Shown in pieces: positions 5,181 through 59,304 of a stretch of 64,000 nt of DNA. The notes under the pieces were generated by a model, which searched no databases, had not been told where the DNA came from, and worked only from the letters and a program-made list of their open reading frames with translations. The stretch covers positions 186,001 to 250,000 of the forward strand of contig NZ_JAMXWN010000002.1 in assembly GCF_024125425.1 (NCBI RefSeq). The letters are read 5' to 3'. Within the stretch, counting starts at the first letter, position 1. Each line of letters starts with the position of its first letter. A program made the translations under genes and the position numbers. The stretch is from Sporolactobacillus kofuensis. GTDB lineage: Bacteria; Bacillota; Bacilli; Bacillales; Sporolactobacillaceae.

Positions 5181-5897
5181 TTGCCACAAAAAGCGATCCG
5201 GCTTCCAAATGATTTGAAATGGTGGGGCGGTGGTTTTATTAACGCGAAATTAGAAAGGTTCAAAGATTTTGTCACTTTTCTTGGAGAAGTGCTCGGCGAC
5301 GATGTTGAAATTATTCTTCATGACGTCACCGACCTTGAGAATTCAGTTGTAGCGATTAGTGAAACGAATTTAAGCGGGCGAGAGATTGGAGCCCCGGTTA
5401 CGAACTTGATCTTGAAGATGTTAAAGGAAGGAAAGGCGGGGAACAAACCGTTTATCACCAACTATGAAGGAGTAGCCAAGGATGGGACGGTTCTACGTTC
5501 GTCAACGTTCTTTATTCGGGACCATGACGGTGAAATTATCGGCATGCTCTGTATTAATGTTGATTATCGAAAAATGGAAAATGTTATTGACTACTTAAGT
5601 AAATTTATTGGTGTACAGAAACCTGTAGAAAAGAAAACGGAAGTGACCGTCGAACATCTAAGCCCTTCCATCGAGGACTTGGCAAAAGCAAGCATTAAAG
5701 AAATTGTAGGTGGTGTGAATATCCCACCCGAACGGATGTCACAGGAAGAGAAATTAGAAATCATTGAAAAGTTAAATGAAAATGGAATCTTTCTACTCAA
5801 AGGAATTGTGAGTATCGTAGCGGAAGAATTATGCACTTCTGAGGCATCAATTTATCGCTACTTGAGCAAAGTAAAAAAAGTGCACGGTAATGTGTAA
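5181..5897 (+). CDS. YheO-type transcriptional regulator (PAS_6 plus HTH_22)
   Basis: A protein of 238 residues. The N-terminal half (about 20-130) matches the YheO-like PAS family, with FVTFLGEVLGDDVEIILHD, the LSGREIGAPVT core and a FFIRDHDGEIIGMLCINVD strand. The C-terminal part (about 165-236) is the family's helix-turn-helix, with EKLEIIEKLNENGIFLLKG and SEASIYRYLSKVK. Relatives such as DauR act as ligand-sensing regulators of amino-acid utilisation. The TTG at 5181 has AAGG six bases upstream and gives the usual family N-terminus after a short extension; no better start is in frame. It sits beside five M20 hydrolases and an ABC peptide transporter, so it is the best candidate for their controller. 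A strong terminator follows. Confidence 0.85.
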   Translation: MPQKAIRLPNDLKWWGGGFINAKLERFKDFVTFLGEVLGDDVEIILHDVTDLENSVVAISETNLSGREIGAPVTNLILKMLKEGKAGNKPFITNYEGVAKDGTVLRSSTFFIRDHDGEIIGMLCINVDYRKMENVIDYLSKFIGVQKPVEKKTEVTVEHLSPSIEDLAKASIKEIVGGVNIPPERMSQEEKLEIIEKLNENGIFLLKGIVSIVAEELCTSEASIYRYLSKVKKVHGNV

Positions 5898-5925
5898 AGG
5901 CAATGACATATGTCTCTATTCATGG

Positions 5926-5972
5926 CAAAAACTCCTGAAGGATGGCGAGTGTGATCCTTCAGGAGTTTTTTT
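5926..5972. terminator. Strong bidirectional terminator
   Basis: Perfect arms ACTCCTGAAGGAT and ATCCTTCAGGAGT surround a 9-nt loop. They are flanked by A on one side and a T run on the other, so the hairpin serves the yheO-like gene and may also serve the minus-strand hydrolase ending at 6090. Confidence 0.9.
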
Positions 5973-6089
5973 CAAAAGAAAAGAAACAGTCATGATTCGC
6001 TTAGGAGCGGAACAACGCTTGAATGAAAAAATAAAATGCTCTGTTTACGTCTAAAAGTATGAAAATACGTTTATTCGTTTGATTTTCGC

Positions 6090-7247
6090 TCAAAGATCTT
6101 TTACTTTTTTCAGCATATCAACAGCAAGATTGGCAAAGAATTTTGCACTTGGAAGAATGGCTTTTTCATCAATAATTAGGTCCGGATGGTGAAGATCAGA
6201 GTTTCCGGAAACCCCCATAAAGAAGAAGGCACCGGGGATTTTACGATTGTACTCAGCAAAATCTTCGCCTGCAAAAGACGGAGTGGGGGTAATCACTTGC
6301 AGTCCGGAAGATTTGGCGCTGCTCACGGCCCAGTCCGTTAGTTTTGCATCATTCATCAATGCCGGTCCGAGCTTTGTATAATGAAGACTACCTTTTGCGC
6401 CGAACCCTGCTGCAACACCTTCTACGATCCGTTTCATTTGTTCTGGAATCCGGTCACGCACTTTTTCGCGAAAGGTACGTACCGTGCCCTCCATTTGTGC
6501 GGTTTGAGGAAGTACGTTCCATGTATTTCCAGATTCAAGACGGGTTACACTGATGACGGCACTGTCCAAAGGGGAAATATTTCGGCTGACAATGGATTGC
6601 AGTGCAGTAATAATGTGTGAAGCCACAACAATGGAGTCAATCCCTGTTTCAGGTGCGGCAGCATGCGTCCCAATGCCTTCGATATCAATAGTGAATGTAT
6701 CGACCGCTGCCATGAGCGGACCGGACTTGATGCCAATTGTTCCAGTTGGGAGATTTGGCATGTCATGCATGCCGAAAATAGCTTGAACGTCGTCAAGAAC
6801 GCCGGATTCAATAACTTTCAGCGCACCACTGCCACTCTCTTCAGCAGGTTGGAAGATGATTTTAACAGTGCCTTCAAGTTCTTCTTTCCTTTCATTGAGT
6901 AACAAGGTCGCTCCAAGAATGGAAGCTGTATGGAAATCATGGCCACACGCGTGCATTTTGCCGGGAATTTTGGAAGCAAATGCCAATCCGGTCGCTTCCT
7001 GAATAGGTAAAGCGTCAATGTCCGTCCGGAGGCAGATCACAGGGCCTGGATTGGCTCCACGAATGACTGCCAATACGCCGGTCTCTAAGGGTAAGGGGAG
7101 CATATCAACGCCCGCATCGGAGAGCCAGTTTTTTATCGCTTTGGTTGTTTCCTTTTCTCCGTATGCGAGTTCAGGATACTGATGCAATTGGCGACGGCAC
7201 GCAATCAATTTTTCTTCAAATAAGGGATCATCTAAAAAAGTAGTCAA
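6090..7247 (-). CDS. M20D amidohydrolase (N-acyl amino acid / hippurate hydrolase type)
   Basis: A protein of 385 residues, typical of the family. It starts LIACRRQLHQYPELAYGE, has the cysteine and metal ligands in MHACGHDFHT (CGHD at 101-104), the catalytic and ligand glutamates in QPAEESGSG (136-137), a lid-domain GTHAAAPE segment and the C-terminal FAGEDFAEY. These zinc or manganese enzymes remove acyl or amino-acyl groups from amino acids in the cytoplasm; the substrate cannot be read from sequence. The TTG start at 7247 has GGAGCG eight bases upstream. It follows another M20 gene on the same strand (98 bp gap), both transcribed away from the transporter operon. It shares family but not close identity with the plus-strand gene at 9006. 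Confidence 0.9.
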   Translation of the reverse strand: MTTFLDDPLFEEKLIACRRQLHQYPELAYGEKETTKAIKNWLSDAGVDMLPLPLETGVLAVIRGANPGPVICLRTDIDALPIQEATGLAFASKIPGKMHACGHDFHTASILGATLLLNERKEELEGTVKIIFQPAEESGSGALKVIESGVLDDVQAIFGMHDMPNLPTGTIGIKSGPLMAAVDTFTIDIEGIGTHAAAPETGIDSIVVASHIITALQSIVSRNISPLDSAVISVTRLESGNTWNVLPQTAQMEGTVRTFREKVRDRIPEQMKRIVEGVAAGFGAKGSLHYTKLGPALMNDAKLTDWAVSSAKSSGLQVITPTPSFAGEDFAEYNRKIPGAFFFMGVSGNSDLHHPDLIIDEKAILPSAKFFANLAVDMLKKVKDL

Positions 7248-18875: not shown

Positions 18876-19027
18876 TTGCATGAAAATGGCCAAAGCCGAG
18901 CAATTTAATGGAAGAGATGTGGACGGTGGATTGTAAGAAGTCCCACACATACTGAGAAAATAGTGAACCTTCTTCGGGTGTGCGGGTGCCTGCCCTCCGG
19001 GACATTGCGTCTGAAACGGAAGGGAGA

Positions 19028-20257
19028 ATGAATGTATCTATGCGTGATCAGGAACAGCCAAGTTATATAATAATCAAAATCATGATCGTACTTTTGTTTC
19101 TCGGGTGTGTCATCTCAGGCATTCTGAGTCTTTTTCCAACGAAACAAACGGGATTGAATGCCCAAGTGGCGAGTGCTGAACGCCACATCCATCAACGTCA
19201 GTTTCAGCGTGTATTCTTCAGAAAGCCTGAATTCATTCATGAGGATCATCAGGAGCCAAAGGTTTCCCATAAACTTTTTAAAGGGATTCATTCTATTGAT
19301 TTCACGTTTGCTGTACTTCCCGATACCCAATATTATAGTCGCTCGCATCCTGATATTTTCAAGCGTATGAATCGCTGGTTCGTCGACAATCGGGATGCGC
19401 TTCAATTACGCTATATCTTTCATTTGGGTGATATCGTGAATAATCACGATCAACCCTATCAATGGAAAGCGGCAGATAAGGCGATGCGGATTTTAGATGA
19501 TGCAATGCTACCCTATGGCATTATTACCGGTAATCATGATGTCGGCTTTCAGAAAAATTATAGGCCGTTCTACCATTATTTTGGCGAAGAGCGCTACCTG
19601 TGGAATCCATGGTACGGCGGAGACTATGAAAATAATAAAGGACATTTTGACTTAATTAATTCAGATGGGCAAAAATATATCATGCTCGGTATGGGCTGGG
19701 GCATTGGCGGTCAAGAAATTGCATGGATGAATCATGTCCTTCATGACTATAGAAAACGGATTGCGATTCTCTTTGTTCATGATTATCTAGGAAGTTACGG
19801 GAAACGAACAGTGCAAGGCCAGATGCTGTTTGAAAAAATTGTAAAACCGAATCGCAATGTGCGACTGGTGATGAATGGACATAGCTACGGTGCAGCGAGA
19901 CGTGTGGATAAGATTGATGACAACCTTGATGGCAAGCCTGATCGTCAAGTCACGCAGATCCTATCTGATTATCAGTCCGTCAAAGGAGGGCAGGGCTACA
20001 TCCGGGTCATGGGCTTCGACCTCAGCCACGATAAAGTCTATGTTCGAACCTTTTCGCCACAGGTGAATCGTACCCACGCATTCAAAAAGAACAAAGACAA
20101 CTTCACCTTCAGCCTTGACCTTGATCAAGAACCGAAGAAGAAAGCAGGACAGAATAGAACAAAAGATCAAGATGAACCTAAGAGGATAAAAACCGAACCT
20201 AAGCATGAGAAAACGGGACCTAGTAAAACGGAAGTTGAACCCAAGAAATCAAAGTGA
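19028..20257 (+). CDS. Membrane-anchored metallophosphoesterase with repeat-derived charged tail
   Basis: A protein of 409 residues from the ATG at 19028, which has GGAAGGGAGA immediately upstream; the frame is open to 18980, and ATG 19040 is another option. A single membrane segment (IMIVLLFLGCVISGILSLF) near residues 17-37 anchors it, with the rest probably outside. The calcineurin-like domain shows LPDTQYYS, FHLGDIVNN, ITGNHDVG, FVHDYLG and MNGHSYGAAR, the metal ligands of the family. The last 28 or so residues are lysine/glutamate-rich with a seven-residue period (EPKRIKT, EPKHEKT, GPSKTEV, EPKKSK). They are encoded by the first four units of the 21-bp array at 20174-20656, and a 19-bp unit creates the stop. 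Substrate unknown. Confidence 0.85.
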   Translation: MNVSMRDQEQPSYIIIKIMIVLLFLGCVISGILSLFPTKQTGLNAQVASAERHIHQRQFQRVFFRKPEFIHEDHQEPKVSHKLFKGIHSIDFTFAVLPDTQYYSRSHPDIFKRMNRWFVDNRDALQLRYIFHLGDIVNNHDQPYQWKAADKAMRILDDAMLPYGIITGNHDVGFQKNYRPFYHYFGEERYLWNPWYGGDYENNKGHFDLINSDGQKYIMLGMGWGIGGQEIAWMNHVLHDYRKRIAILFVHDYLGSYGKRTVQGQMLFEKIVKPNRNVRLVMNGHSYGAARRVDKIDDNLDGKPDRQVTQILSDYQSVKGGQGYIRVMGFDLSHDKVYVRTFSPQVNRTHAFKKNKDNFTFSLDLDQEPKKKAGQNRTKDQDEPKRIKTEPKHEKTGPSKTEVEPKKSK

Positions 20258-20656
20258 ACTTAAGCGGGAAAAAACCGAACCTAAGCCAGAGAAAATCGAA
20301 CCTAATAAAACGGAAACCGAACCCAAGAAATTAAATTGAACTTAAGGAGGAAAAAACCGAACCCAAGCATGAGAAAACCGAACCTAATAAAACGAAAACC
20401 GAACTTAAGCTTAGATAAGTCGTAACAAATTAAGGAAAAATTGTAACCAAGCCTAATAAATTAGTAACGAAAAAATGTAATGGTAACGAAATAGTGAAAA
20501 GTCGTAACGAACCAGGAAAAAATCGTAACCAATCTCAAAAAAGTAGTAACGAATCCAAGAAAAATCGTAACGAAGCCTAAAAAATAAGTAACGAAAAAAT
20601 ATAATGGTAACGAAACACCGAAACACCGAAACACCGAAACACCGAAACACCGAAAC
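20174..20656. repeat. 21-bp-phased repeat array A (about 22 units), with an 8-bp microrepeat at its end
   Basis: Units run back to back. Twelve begin GAACCTAA or a close variant (20174, 20195, 20216, 20237, 20256, 20277, 20298, 20319, 20338, 20359, 20380, 20401). From 20422 they begin GTAACGAA or variants (20422, 20443, 20464, 20483, 20504, 20525, 20546, 20567, 20588, 20607). Spacing is 21 bp except for four 19-bp units (20237, 20319, 20464, 20588). Unit interiors differ but are A-rich and often end AAAACC or AAAATC. The first half has a higher-order period of four units (82 bp). The array ends in five copies of ACCGAAAC (20617-20656). It starts inside the phosphoesterase gene and fills the gap before the convergent acetyltransferase. 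Confidence 0.92.
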
Positions 20657-20658
20657 AT

Positions 20659-20722
20659 GAAAAAAGACCGGCTGTTTGCGTAAATCGATAAGGCAGATAA
20701 CACGCAGTTTGCTCGGTCTTTC
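20659..20722 (-). terminator. Possible terminator of the minus-strand acetyltransferase
   Basis: On the minus strand AAAGACCG and CGGTCTTT pair across a loop of about 48 nt, followed by T. The loop is long, so efficiency is doubtful. It lies at the edge of repeat array A. Confidence 0.35.
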
Positions 20723-20745
20723 TAAATTTATAAAGGCTTTTTCGA

Positions 20746-21648
20746 TTAGTTCTTTAGTGAATAGGTGTAACACACTACGGATTCCACTTGTTTAAACCCT
20801 TCGTGTGTGTATAAGGTTTTCGCACGTTCATTTTCACCATTCACGCATAAGACAGCGCTTGAATAGTTATTTGCATGAGCAAAATTAAGCGATGATCGGA
20901 GCATTGCCCGACCCAAGCCTTGACCTTGATAGGATGGGATAATCGCCAGAGGGCCAATATTCATGATCGGTGCGCCTTCATATTCATCATCTGCGCCGCG
21001 TACAATACCAATCGGCTGATTGCCATGATACAGAATCAGCATACCATCCTCTAAATAATCGCTTTCTGAGACCATTTTTTTCACCATATTTGCGGTAATT
21101 GGTGTTTCACTTCCAAGCAGTTTCGCAAAACCTGAGTTCCGTACTTCTGCCCATAAGTCTTCATCTTTACCTGGTTGAAAGGGACGGATGACAAACCCTT
21201 CAGGCAAAGCAACAGGAAGCGGGGTTAAATTTTCCTTTACCAATAAAAATGAATAGCGCCATTTTGTGAATTGCAATTTTTCTACATTTGCCATCATCTC
21301 TGCATTTGTCGTTTGAATGAATAGCGACAGCTCAGTTAATGCTTGCGTGTGTTGCTTTATTGCGTTTAACAGCATTTGATACTGATCATAGGCATTGCTT
21401 TCACAGTGAAAAATACGAAAACGACCGCGTCCGCTTTTTTGGTAATATTCATCCATGAGCAGTGATGCTGCGCCAACAATCATATCGTTTTCATCGGTCA
21501 GGATGTAGGTCGGGTTCTCTTCATCCGGTTCGAAATGCTCCAAATCCTCATCGTAGAGATAGGAATCATCAACGTCCATGCGGTGTTTTTTGCAATAAGC
21601 AACAAAATCATGAATGCGTTCGTTACTCAAATAGTCAATAGTCACCAT
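20746..21648 (-). CDS. GNAT family N-acetyltransferase, double-domain type
   Basis: A protein of 300 residues from the ATG at 21648; a TTG three codons upstream is also possible. The C-terminal half has the acetyl-CoA binding segment PSYQGQGLGRAMLRSSL, preceded by the MNIGPLAIIP strand and followed by SAVLCVNGENERAKTLYTHEGF, all typical of GNAT folds. The N-terminal half (about 1-140) is a second, degenerate GNAT-like region, as in several 300-residue family members. It transfers an acetyl group to an unknown amine. It is convergent with the metallophosphoesterase; repeat array A lies between them. Confidence 0.85.
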   Translation of the reverse strand: MVTIDYLSNERIHDFVAYCKKHRMDVDDSYLYDEDLEHFEPDEENPTYILTDENDMIVGAASLLMDEYYQKSGRGRFRIFHCESNAYDQYQMLLNAIKQHTQALTELSLFIQTTNAEMMANVEKLQFTKWRYSFLLVKENLTPLPVALPEGFVIRPFQPGKDEDLWAEVRNSGFAKLLGSETPITANMVKKMVSESDYLEDGMLILYHGNQPIGIVRGADDEYEGAPIMNIGPLAIIPSYQGQGLGRAMLRSSLNFAHANNYSSAVLCVNGENERAKTLYTHEGFKQVESVVCYTYSLKN

Positions 21649-21780
21649 GGTCACCAACTTTTCATTAATAAAATTAGTATAAAATGTGAAACCTTTCCGT
21701 TATCGATCAACTGATTCCATGATAATAAAACCCGACATGACTCAAATTTTAGTTTTCGATCATACCGGTTAAATTTCTAT

Positions 21781-34300: not shown

Positions 34301-35254
34301 GATGGAGGAAAATCCTCTAATAATGGAGGTAAAGATAATCCAACCACCTATACCGCATACTTATTAGAGAAGCATGCAGTACGTACAGGGCCTTCAACAA
34401 AAAATAGAGTGCTCGCAACATTAAGTGCAGGATCAGCTGTACACGTGTTAAATGGTAGAGGGAAATGGGTAAAAATCGATTTCAAGGGAAGAACTGCTTT
34501 TGTATATGGAGAGATCACAAAAGCGAAACCGTATACGGCTTATCTAACAGAGAAGCATGTGGTACGTACAGGCCCGTCCACAAAGCATAGGCGTATCACA
34601 ACATTAACCGCCGGAACGGCAGTAAACGTTCTGCACTCAGGGAAATGGGCAAGGGTTGCTTATAAAGGAAGAGCTGCCTATGTGTATGGTGAGATCACAA
34701 AAACGAAACCGTATATCGCTTATTTAACAGAGAAGCATGCAGTACGTACAGGCCCGTCCACGAAATATAAACGAATGGCAACATTTAAGATTGGAACAGC
34801 AGTAAACGTTCTGCGTTCAGGAAAATGGGCAAGAATTGCTTATAAAGGAAGAGCTGCCTATGTGTATGGAGAGATCACAAAAACGAAACCGTATATCGCT
34901 TATTTAACAGAGAAGCATGCAGTACGTACAGGCCCGTCCACGAAATATAAACGAATGGCAACATTTAAGATTGGAACAGCAGTAAACGTTCTGCGTTCAG
35001 GGAAATGGGCAAGAATTGCTTATAAAGGAAGAGCCGCTTATGTGTATGGAGATTTGTCGAAGCATAGACTTTATACTGTATATCTCACAAAAGATTTTGT
35101 GATCCGGACGGGTTCATCTACAAAAGATAAAATAGTTGCAAGATTAGAAGCGGGAACAGCCATTCAAATTCAGCAATTAGTGAAATGGATAAAAATTATG
35201 TATCATGGGGAAACCGCCTATTTGTACGGCGATGTGATCAAGTTTATCCGATAA
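31370..35254 (+). CDS. Secreted modular pectinesterase with four FN3 and five SH3-like domains
   Basis: A protein of 1294 residues starting at TTG 31370 (AGGGGGAGAG upstream). A signal peptide (about 1-29, ending RALAAPQ) precedes a lectin-like beta-sandwich region (about 35-250), four fibronectin-type-III modules (about 254-345, 347-436, 437-529, 530-618), and a family 8 pectin methylesterase (about 623-895). The catalytic parts are SHQDTLY (Q about 752), GDVDFIFG (D about 772) and VYLGRPWK (R about 830). A polar acidic linker follows, then five SH3-like repeats (about 992-1290), each with AVRTGPSTK and a GKWA-x-(V/I)-(A/D)-(Y/F) core, probably binding cell wall. It de-esterifies plant pectin outside the cell while held at the wall. 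SH3 copies 3 and 4 are nearly identical in DNA. Confidence 0.93.
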   Translation: MKKLLRMMLCLTLVVSLVSDFSLVRALAAPQESQDYMINDNFEDPGLPSNITDSITDTLGNYKVQITSNKGEPWVFSPGDNNVQLTDDPVNPGNKVLKLYDNQDGSPDKGGSTRISNSSFSKQTNKTTVVAFDFMGAPIGSSTRFRLTNAGVNTALVSLETSGNQLVYRKADNTTAPLLDSLQPNSWYHVKIEIDMQQALYSVNVSGAGDAEIKNVPFYQSVSDFGNFDVNTGNSSIATLYLDNIQIYTPSIVPSAPTDLTTQAGNTQTKLSWKSASNATSYNIKRSTTPEGPFTTVKSNVTDLTFTDSGLTNDTSYYYVVSGVNSVGEGPDSLPVIVTPSSAVPLPQTPKNVTVTSKDSSINLLWDKVDSADFYTVKRSTSPEGPFVTIASELIDPTYTDKDVVNGTTYYYRVQASGVGGDGLESTPVRVQPRTPIMSPEELVANPDNKRVILNWKRVDGVTSYVVKRSLNNGGPYTTVATGVKDSTYTDSEVENGILYYYVVTAVGDQAESMISNQTQAMPKVSIVGAPASPTDILASAGNRQVELQWKARPDASFYTIKRSTTSSGPYTDIATGLSLPAFTDSKVENGTQYYYVVSASNAKGESQLSNELAVMPAKIIVVAQDGTGDYTTIQDAVNAIPSDNTMRTIIYIKNGIYKEKVSIPQDYVSIIGESRDQTVIDWDDYGGTNGQSGNVGSTFASQTVGVTGDYFRASNLTIKNSREPRVTYGTAVALSVKSDQAVFENMKIISHQDTLYTGSGRQYYHNSYIEGDVDFIFGEAPAVVFDHSEIHSNGTSGYVTAAAQSNESDKGFVFLNSRLTKDDSVTRVYLGRPWKNNPKTTFINTWMDDHIDPSGWSKWSNTLNHELASYAEYNSMGPGANAAKRVSWSKQLSAQEASAFTLPRIFNGWDPSLTLIMPPPVTLPTVIAPVEPSNNGISTGEEMPQTGQMGNNEVNGAKNQDGDGKAIEHDTMGEVEDGGKSSNNGGKDNPTTYTAYLLEKHAVRTGPSTKNRVLATLSAGSAVHVLNGRGKWVKIDFKGRTAFVYGEITKAKPYTAYLTEKHVVRTGPSTKHRRITTLTAGTAVNVLHSGKWARVAYKGRAAYVYGEITKTKPYIAYLTEKHAVRTGPSTKYKRMATFKIGTAVNVLRSGKWARIAYKGRAAYVYGEITKTKPYIAYLTEKHAVRTGPSTKYKRMATFKIGTAVNVLRSGKWARIAYKGRAAYVYGDLSKHRLYTVYLTKDFVIRTGSSTKDKIVARLEAGTAIQIQQLVKWIKIMYHGETAYLYGDVIKFIR
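34691..35050 (+). repeat. Tandem 180-bp duplication within the SH3 region
   Basis: 34691-34870 and 34871-35050 match at all but about three positions, each encoding one SH3-like module plus linker. The other three modules are diverged. The near identity means a recent duplication or ongoing homogenisation, and makes the module count likely to vary between strains. Confidence 0.92.
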
Positions 35255-36438: not shown

Positions 36439-36520
36439 ACAAGATTCAACGCTTGCTACTGTTGTTTGGTAGTTCGTTACGATTTTAGTTGTTAGTTACT
36501 GTTTTGATAGTGTTCGTTAC
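36439..36520 (-). repeat. 21-bp-phased repeat array D (GTAACGAA type, minus orientation)
   Basis: Read on the minus strand, units start at 36520 (GTAACGAACA), 36499 (GTAACTAACA), 36480 (GTAACGAACT) and 36459 (GTAGCAAGCG, degenerate). Steps are 21, 19 and 21 bp, the same two lengths as in array A. It lies between the hypothetical gene ending at 36318 and the membrane gene starting at 36556. Confidence 0.82.
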
Positions 36521-59124: not shown

Positions 59125-59304
59125 GAACTTAATAGAGTAACAAATGAACTTAAGGAAAGAAAAACCAAACCTAATCGGGAAGAAGTCGAACCTAAGAAAT
59201 TAAACCGAACCGAGTCGGATAAAAGTCGAACCCAACCCAGTAGGAATCGAACCTAACCGAATGAAAATCGCACCCATCCAAGCTGGAAGGGAACGTAATC
59301 ATCC
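59125..59304 (+). repeat. 21-bp-phased repeat array C (GAACCTAA type)
   Basis: Units begin at 59125, 59146, 59167, 59188, 59207, 59228, 59249, 59270 and 59291, opening GAACTTAA, GAACTTAA, AAACCTAA, GAACCTAA, GAACCGAG, GAACCCAA, GAACCTAA, GCACCCAT and GAACGTAA. All steps are 21 bp except one 19-bp step (59188 to 59207). The array begins after the manC terminator and decays toward 59304. Confidence 0.88.

Follow-up and report, generated by a model that had tools for sequence, protein, structure and literature searches.

Tandem arrays with a shared unit skeleton and a directed position behind genes in Sporolactobacillus

Sporolactobacillus genomes carry tandem arrays whose unit, across species, reduces to the block AAAGTY-G-N3-C-N-AA followed by a spacer of about 8 bp in 21-bp units or about 6 bp in 19-bp units. 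Block and step persist between species and partly between genera, while the remaining letters turn over. The arrays sit behind genes, mostly directed like the preceding gene, and rarely lie between divergent genes, a position that can also arise through mere tolerance. The array from which the analysis set out lies in the window, i.e., the whole 64,000-nucleotide stretch of Sporolactobacillus kofuensis DNA that was analyzed, and the interpretation originally made from its letters holds in part.

Architecture of the array in the window

The array occupies positions 20174–20614 of the window and consists of 22 units, with heads running from 20174 to 20607. Head-to-head spacing is 21 bp in 17 cases and 19 bp in four, in the order 21, 21, 21, 19, 21, 21, 21, 19, 21, 21, 21, 21, 21, 21, 19, 21, 21, 21, 21, 21, 19, just as the original prediction of about 22 units with 19 bp as the sole other length had it. 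The array, its neighbors and two further arrays in the window are as follows.

18980..20257, plus strand: ORF with a calcineurin-like phosphoesterase domain (residues 109–302 of 425)
20174..20421, plus strand: first-family units (n = 12), head GAACCYAA or near variants, spacing 21, 21, 21, 19 (82-bp block)
20422..20614, plus strand: second-family units (n = 10), head GTAACSAA or near variants, spacing 21 and 19
20611..20657, plus strand: 8-bp repeat CGAAACAC, 5.9 copies, closing the array
20749..21657, minus strand: GNAT-family acetyltransferase gene, convergent to the array
36473..36520, minus strand: second-family array of three units, spacings 21 and 19
59125..59277, plus strand: second first-family array, 6–7 units by two parses

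At 20422 the head switches from GAACCYAA to GTAACSAA, and the second family begins in phase, as had been claimed. Four-unit blocks of 82 bp in the first half were likewise correctly foreseen: they appear both in the spacing (21+21+21+19) and in the output of Tandem Repeats Finder, which reports an 82-bp period at 20166–20404 (2.9 copies, 84% matches) and also a 124-bp period at 20417–20665. The best chain score of the real window was 16.2, against a maximum of 1.7 among 200 dinucleotide shuffles of an 800-bp segment and of 1.4 in 20 shuffles of the whole window done in 4-kb pieces. The array had been described as intergenic and as extending to 20656. The first four units (20174–20255) form the tail of the phosphoesterase ORF and are read in frame up to its stop at 20257, so the array is only partly intergenic; the array proper stops near 20614, and 20611–20657 is the closing 8-bp repeat.

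In 15 units of 21 bp from this array, taken by a stricter parse, pairwise identity was 1.0 at unit positions 1, 3, 7, 8, 17 and 18 and 0.25–0.49 at positions 9–15. Units had been found by their heads, and positions 17–18 played no part in the finding. The idea that only a short head is conserved is right in that the head is fixed and wrong in making it the sole fixed part, AA at 17–18 being equally fixed. Constant spacing around a divergent interior, also part of the prediction, is upheld by this alignment and by the arrays of the genus.

The second first-family array (59125–59277) is flanked by two plus-strand genes, one of the nucleotidyltransferase/mannose-6-phosphate isomerase type and one for an M20 peptidase. 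Elsewhere in the window, a tandem repeat of 180 bp (34349–35052, 3.3–3.9 copies) probably lies within a coding gene.

Arrays across the genus and the skeleton of the unit

A two-head pattern search of the window's genome (G000; 2.96 Mb, 43 contigs) gave 76 matches genome-wide for family A (75+1) and 39 for family B, and the same pattern read backward gave none. Family A was matched in nine of the 15 genomes of the genus and family B in six. Beside G000, high counts were obtained in G003 (136), G010 (115) and G011 (27) for family A, and in G003 (65), G013 (13) and G011 (12) for family B; lone matches in the remaining genus genomes did not exceed the control level (0–4 for A, 0–1 for B). The same arrays occur in records of S. 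putidus JCM 15325 and Sporolactobacillus sp. STSJ-5. A query taken from G010, a stretch that includes an array, was matched at least in part, whether by flank or by array, in 14 of the 15 genus genomes; outside the genus, two of 23 genomes matched over 47–48 bp of flank. Other heads also exist within the genus, namely AGACC and GCACC in G001 and GGTCC, GGACC and GATCC in G006 and G014. Further arrays in relatives, whose absence would have counted against the prediction, were thus found.

Among 441 spacings from 31 arrays in five genomes of the genus, 329 were 21 bp, 88 were 19 bp, 11 were 20 bp and 13 had other lengths. Exactly three 21s separate successive 19s in 30 of the 52 intervals of these arrays, and among 21 genus arrays with at least nine units, 13 have a lag of 82 bp as their first- or second-ranked period. 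The expectation that units elsewhere would keep the 19/21 spacing is thus borne out by these counts, but 19 bp is not the sole alternative everywhere: G006 and G014 have 21 and 22 in place of 21 and 19, and 20 bp is found in other genera. The largest of the family B arrays in G000 is followed by several consecutive copies of a AAGAACTTTCC...GGAAAGTTCTT-type hairpin (L014:3700–4200).

Copies of 21-bp units lying 82 bp apart (135 pairs) were then compared by position. Mismatch was 1–7% at positions 1–5, 7 and 8, 33% at position 6, 23–38% at 9–16, 10% at 17 and 1% at 18; the low values at head positions are partly built in, since heads served to find the units, and positions 17–18 were not used for that purpose. 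An information count over nine genus genomes with a looser anchor (AA, [AC]C, AA) gave, outside the anchor, 1.20 bits at G1, 0.96 at G19 and 1.44 at T20. Together these results give the cross-species skeleton with its variable spacer.

Arrays in other genera

BLAST with the window array against 299 genomes of the order, two candidates being scored per genome, returned five weak matches outside the genus, none of which had an array. Such a search is blind to arrays with another word, and these were found by the pattern AAAGTCG at 19–21 bp spacing, which matched in 27 of 147 relatives. A pattern search at spacings of 22–24 bp, which serves as an incidental control, matched in none of 38 genomes. 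The backward control of the pattern gave 0–7 matches per genome, except for G006 (36) and G014 (50). By count, G018 alone stands out among the other genera (27 matches against a control of 4). Six further genomes (G050, G115, G133, G104, G074 and G070) have two to five matches each, no higher than the backward control, so arrays outside G018 were identified by the letters around the match. Read in this way, arrays of at least three units surround matches in G018 and in all six of these genomes; several lone matches in further genomes look random.

Judged from these letters, other genera of the order carry different words in a common frame, AAGTC-G-N5-AA. Each genome has its own word: GCYCCATTT, GCTATAAA, GTGCATAAA, GCTGATAAA, GCTCCAAAC and GCAAGAAAA. 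In word-anchored loci from eight genomes, seven of other genera plus G009 of the genus (18 of 20 loci, L303 and L304 being left out), AAGTC is kept before the word, and A7 and A8 follow it in 86% and 80%, respectively. The AAAGTCG half of the cross-genus skeleton is partly built in, because AAAGTCG was the search term; A7–A8 formed no part of that search. The main G018 word, which has TT at 7–8, is an exception.

The array L317 (G070, 25 units), which belongs to another family of the order and whose word is unrelated to that of the window, has the spacing 21, 21, 21, 19 with one run of four 21s. L300 alternates 20 and 21, L305–L310 have mostly 20, and L311–L313 have 18, 20 and 21. In L309 (2900–3300), a second array, with TTATTGGCGA on the opposite strand about 20–21 bp apart, stands close behind the first. 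Gene context in G018 carries little weight, because its assembly has a completeness of 75% and a contamination of 10%, and its dnaA is split into two ORFs.

A scan of genome contigs gave at least 118 stretches. Among the 80 listed, five are from Sporolactobacillus, one (L092) shows arrays of this kind, and the rest are mostly perfect or open-frame repeats. L092 (JAQZAZ010000299.1), filed as Sphingobacterium, holds a family B array and a G010-type left flank. It may be a misbinned contig, its remaining genes looking Bacillales-like by eye. Seven other stretches (L072, L076, L083, L086, L094, L098 and L113), from Bacteroidota, Planctomycetota, cyanobacteria, Oscillospiraceae and Herpetosiphonaceae contigs, contain 21-bp arrays whose heads read G[AT]A[AC]C and whose interiors have diverged, in part directly behind a stop codon; since the head was the search term, these arrays in distant phyla may be chance.

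Position and direction relative to genes

Sixty-six rows (arrays or array parts from six genomes, with two duplicates) were placed relative to genes called by a hexamer-trained gene caller. The 5' gene is co-oriented with the array in 56 of the 62 rows that have genes on both sides. Counted by distinct gap, 29 gaps are tandem and co-oriented, four tandem and against, 19 convergent and two divergent, and array-free gaps of at least 150 bp divide into 83 tandem, 25 convergent and 48 divergent. Divergent gaps thus make up 2 of 54 with an array versus 48 of 156 without (Fisher p = 1.3e-5, divergent vs. rest). A second set comprises 20 loci, 19 from the seven other-genus genomes and one from G009, for which ORF length served to call the genes. 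Array and 5' gene share their orientation in 18 of these; seven gaps are tandem co-oriented, two tandem against, 11 convergent and none divergent. Direction is tested by tandem gaps only, because either orientation counts as co-oriented in a convergent gap, and the placed rows are partly non-independent, because some loci are common to G003 and G011.

Of the 56 co-oriented rows, 47 show positive local GC skew on the strand of the array, and since skew mostly agrees with array direction, replication strand is a partial confounder. As regards a fork direction of the Ter type, Sporolactobacillus arrays lie mostly on the G-rich strand. By sampled skew, two of four arrays read in G133, with a co-oriented gene before them, and all five read in G018, where DnaA domains stand at base 1 and three arrays have a co-oriented 5' ORF, lie on the lagging strand, so no single leading-strand rule covers all genomes.

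Turnover and mobile context

In a region 99.7% identical between G003 and G011, the array differs in its unit run, the G003 side having a run of N. The difference is of the kind produced by ordinary change in repeat number, which makes the phase-copying replication slippage put forward in the original prediction superfluous. Orthologous array places (L164/L216, L014/L170, L238/L215 and L163/L217) have flanks 73–82% identical and different units. The site of window positions 5890–6110 carries an array in G003, G011 and G012 and none in G000. A hairpin, CAACTCG...CGAGTTG, stands immediately 5' of the first unit at L163:2264–2282 and L217:3758–3776, and is kept at these two orthologous arrays (G003, G012).

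The arrays of G010 sit within a dispersed element with conserved ends. Elements of this kind, with conserved ends and variable cargo, were observed at L232:3760–4530, L282:360–950, L280:1060–1650 and L092:1–480, the cargo being an array in G010 and L092 and small ORFs in G002 and G012. The element of L282 has three AAAGTTCTTTACT-type repeats at its left end and inverted copies at its right end, which resemble a multi-site transposon end.

Relation to known repeat systems

Tandem repeats of a constant length of 20–21 nt were reportedly first described by Subirana and Messeguer in J Bacteriol in 2020. The available text of their 2021 paper counts 781 such arrays in 176 Bacillus genomes; their length is constant, their sequence is species-specific and they are in general non-coding. 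It adds that they also occur in Firmicutes and other groups, with several families per genome (PMC8161180). For B. weihaiensis it describes TCGCGG as a short signal that stays constant, and it proposes two roles, as small RNAs or in a protein lining for the nucleoid, the function being unsettled (PMC8161180). The window array is, in all likelihood, a member of this class of constant length and variable sequence. An array of this class has four or more repeats in tandem, of which 60% or more share one length to within 1 nt; the window array has 22 units, with 17 of 21 spacings equal to 21. It is non-coding in that the stop at 20257 precedes 18 of the 22 units and the 19-bp units shift the frame, the first four being in the ORF. 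Several families, species-specific sequence and a short within-species signal are all present.

The available text states that the sequence of the 20–21 nt repeats is not conserved between species (PMC8161180), whereas Sporolactobacillus arrays share a skeleton across species. A cross-genus skeleton, an 82-bp block, an in-phase family switch and a directed place were not found in the main texts of Subirana and Messeguer, as far as these were accessible. Measured against that text, the class is already in print, and the skeleton across genera, the 82-bp block and the directed position appear as additions. A literature search found no work on intergenic repeats of Sporolactobacillus, and tandem-repeat papers for the genus were unrelated by title.

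REP and BIME elements favor gene ends and bind proteins. The window-type arrays resemble them in being dispersed and extragenic; REPs, so far as the accessible source text describes them, are palindromic and alternate in direction, whereas these arrays are direct one-way repeats with no palindrome and no RNA fold. Plasmid and phage iterons are direct repeats about two helical turns long and bound by an initiator. The present arrays are chromosomal, many per genome and placed behind unrelated genes, and the neighbors of the window arrays are metabolic genes rather than an origin with an initiator gene. Perfect 21-bp GTAACCAAAAAGGGA repeats are present in phage contigs, and in the phage contigs L240, L241, L245 and L246 perfect or near-perfect 21-bp GTAACCAAAAAGGGAGTTAAG repeats stand shortly before a gene start, in an iteron-like manner. 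With the low-complexity filter on, the window array matched no phage record and the G010 element no plasmid record. A pattern search of viral contigs gave 7 + 27 stretches, none like these arrays; they are mostly open frames, the closed ones being perfect phage repeats or protein-tail repeats.

In CRISPR or TIGR arrays, a constant block alternates with variable spacers. Their spacers are unique, whereas those of the present arrays recur with the four-unit 82-bp block, and a Pfam scan of the adjoining genes found no effector gene beside two window arrays. Some resemblances were set aside as probable chance, namely those between the family B block and 16S rRNA 1492–1503 or E. coli Ter, and those between family A and the Spo0A box or the tRNA T-loop.

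Possible role of the arrays

We tentatively favor the reading that the arrays are a docking register for a hypothetical protein lining the DNA at gene ends. Units would multiply, often four at a time in 82-bp blocks, through ordinary slippage or recombination; a hypothetical DNA-binding protein docking once per two helical turns would then retain them. The protein-lined array at the end of a transcription unit would form a directed barrier or anchor, serving against read-through or for the nucleoid. A fixed block and a fixed step with free letters between suggest docking once per two turns, and the direction of the arrays, which follows that of transcription, points to action at transcription-unit ends. 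Constraint for docking is further suggested by skeleton letters that are kept while positions 9–16 diverge, and by L317, which repeats the 21, 21, 21, 19 series with an unrelated word. Against docking, spacing varies between 20, 21 and 22 among genomes, so that the units of an array do not all stay strictly on one face of the helix.

Somewhat less probable is that the arrays are instead a tolerated satellite: functionless repeats that arise by slippage and recombination, are carried about by mobile segments and persist behind genes because in other places they would damage promoters or coding sequence, with skeleton and step reflecting descent and mutational bias. This would account for the change in repeat number between the near-identical G003 and G011 (one side with N), the dispersal within an element with conserved ends in G010, the avoidance of divergent gaps and the variation of unit words between genomes. 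Taken alone, it leaves unexplained the direction in tandem gaps, 29 versus four by gap and seven versus two in the second set, and also why spacers diverge yet skeleton letters stay.

An RNA element is unlikely. Here the A-rich strand would be transcribed from the preceding gene and the block bound as RNA, by Rho, Hfq or another protein, with back-up termination, mRNA stability or a sponge as the outcome. Array direction, which follows the preceding gene, is in keeping with this, as are related-class repeats of 52 nt reported from B. coagulans RNA-seq in the accessible part of the source (PMC8625621). In 24 of 58 rows the stretch from the stop codon to the array contains a hairpin with a T-run below −8 kcal/mol, and such hairpins are equally frequent within 260 bp past the array; a stricter terminator rule gave 16 of 53 rows versus seven on the opposite strand. 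With such counts the arrays are not dependably behind a terminator, and loci lacking one would suit an RNA role, but the strong terminators that do precede arrays speak against it. Predicted structure also argues against an RNA element (mean z +0.5 sense and −0.5 antisense in 17 arrays, single values −1.6 to +4.1), and no Rfam family was found in window positions 19900–20900 or in L229, L232, L164 and L216.

Intrinsically curved DNA, with A-tracts in phase with the helix, is very improbable: AA at 7–8 and 17–18 are indeed ten bases apart, but a wedge model gave a mean z of 0.6 against dinucleotide shuffles in 20 arrays, two of them above 2. Predicted curvature is therefore not raised, which counts against the docking reading as well. 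A decayed protein-coding heptad repeat, suggested by units 1–4 being in frame within the upstream ORF, is scarcely credible and as a general account is refuted by the other loci, since 19-bp units break the frame, a stop closes it at 20257, and arrays of this kind stand behind many different genes.

The docking reading can be widened, with less confidence, to a single directed system in many Bacillales and perhaps beyond, which would read the AAGTC-G-N5-AA skeleton with an interchangeable word of 4–5 bases. Such a system, which we regard as somewhat unlikely, would have one skeleton per two helical turns, with 21+21+21+19 as its fullest form, and its arrays would mark or insulate transcription-unit ends. 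Each species would have its own word because the word would evolve together with its reader.

In practical terms, the arrays disrupt assemblies, several of those in G003 holding runs of N. The available text of the 2021 paper leaves it as an open question why some bacteria have numerous non-coding repeats that are fixed in length yet free in sequence (PMC8161180). With a skeleton, a four-unit block and a directed place, the question of what these repeats do becomes testable.
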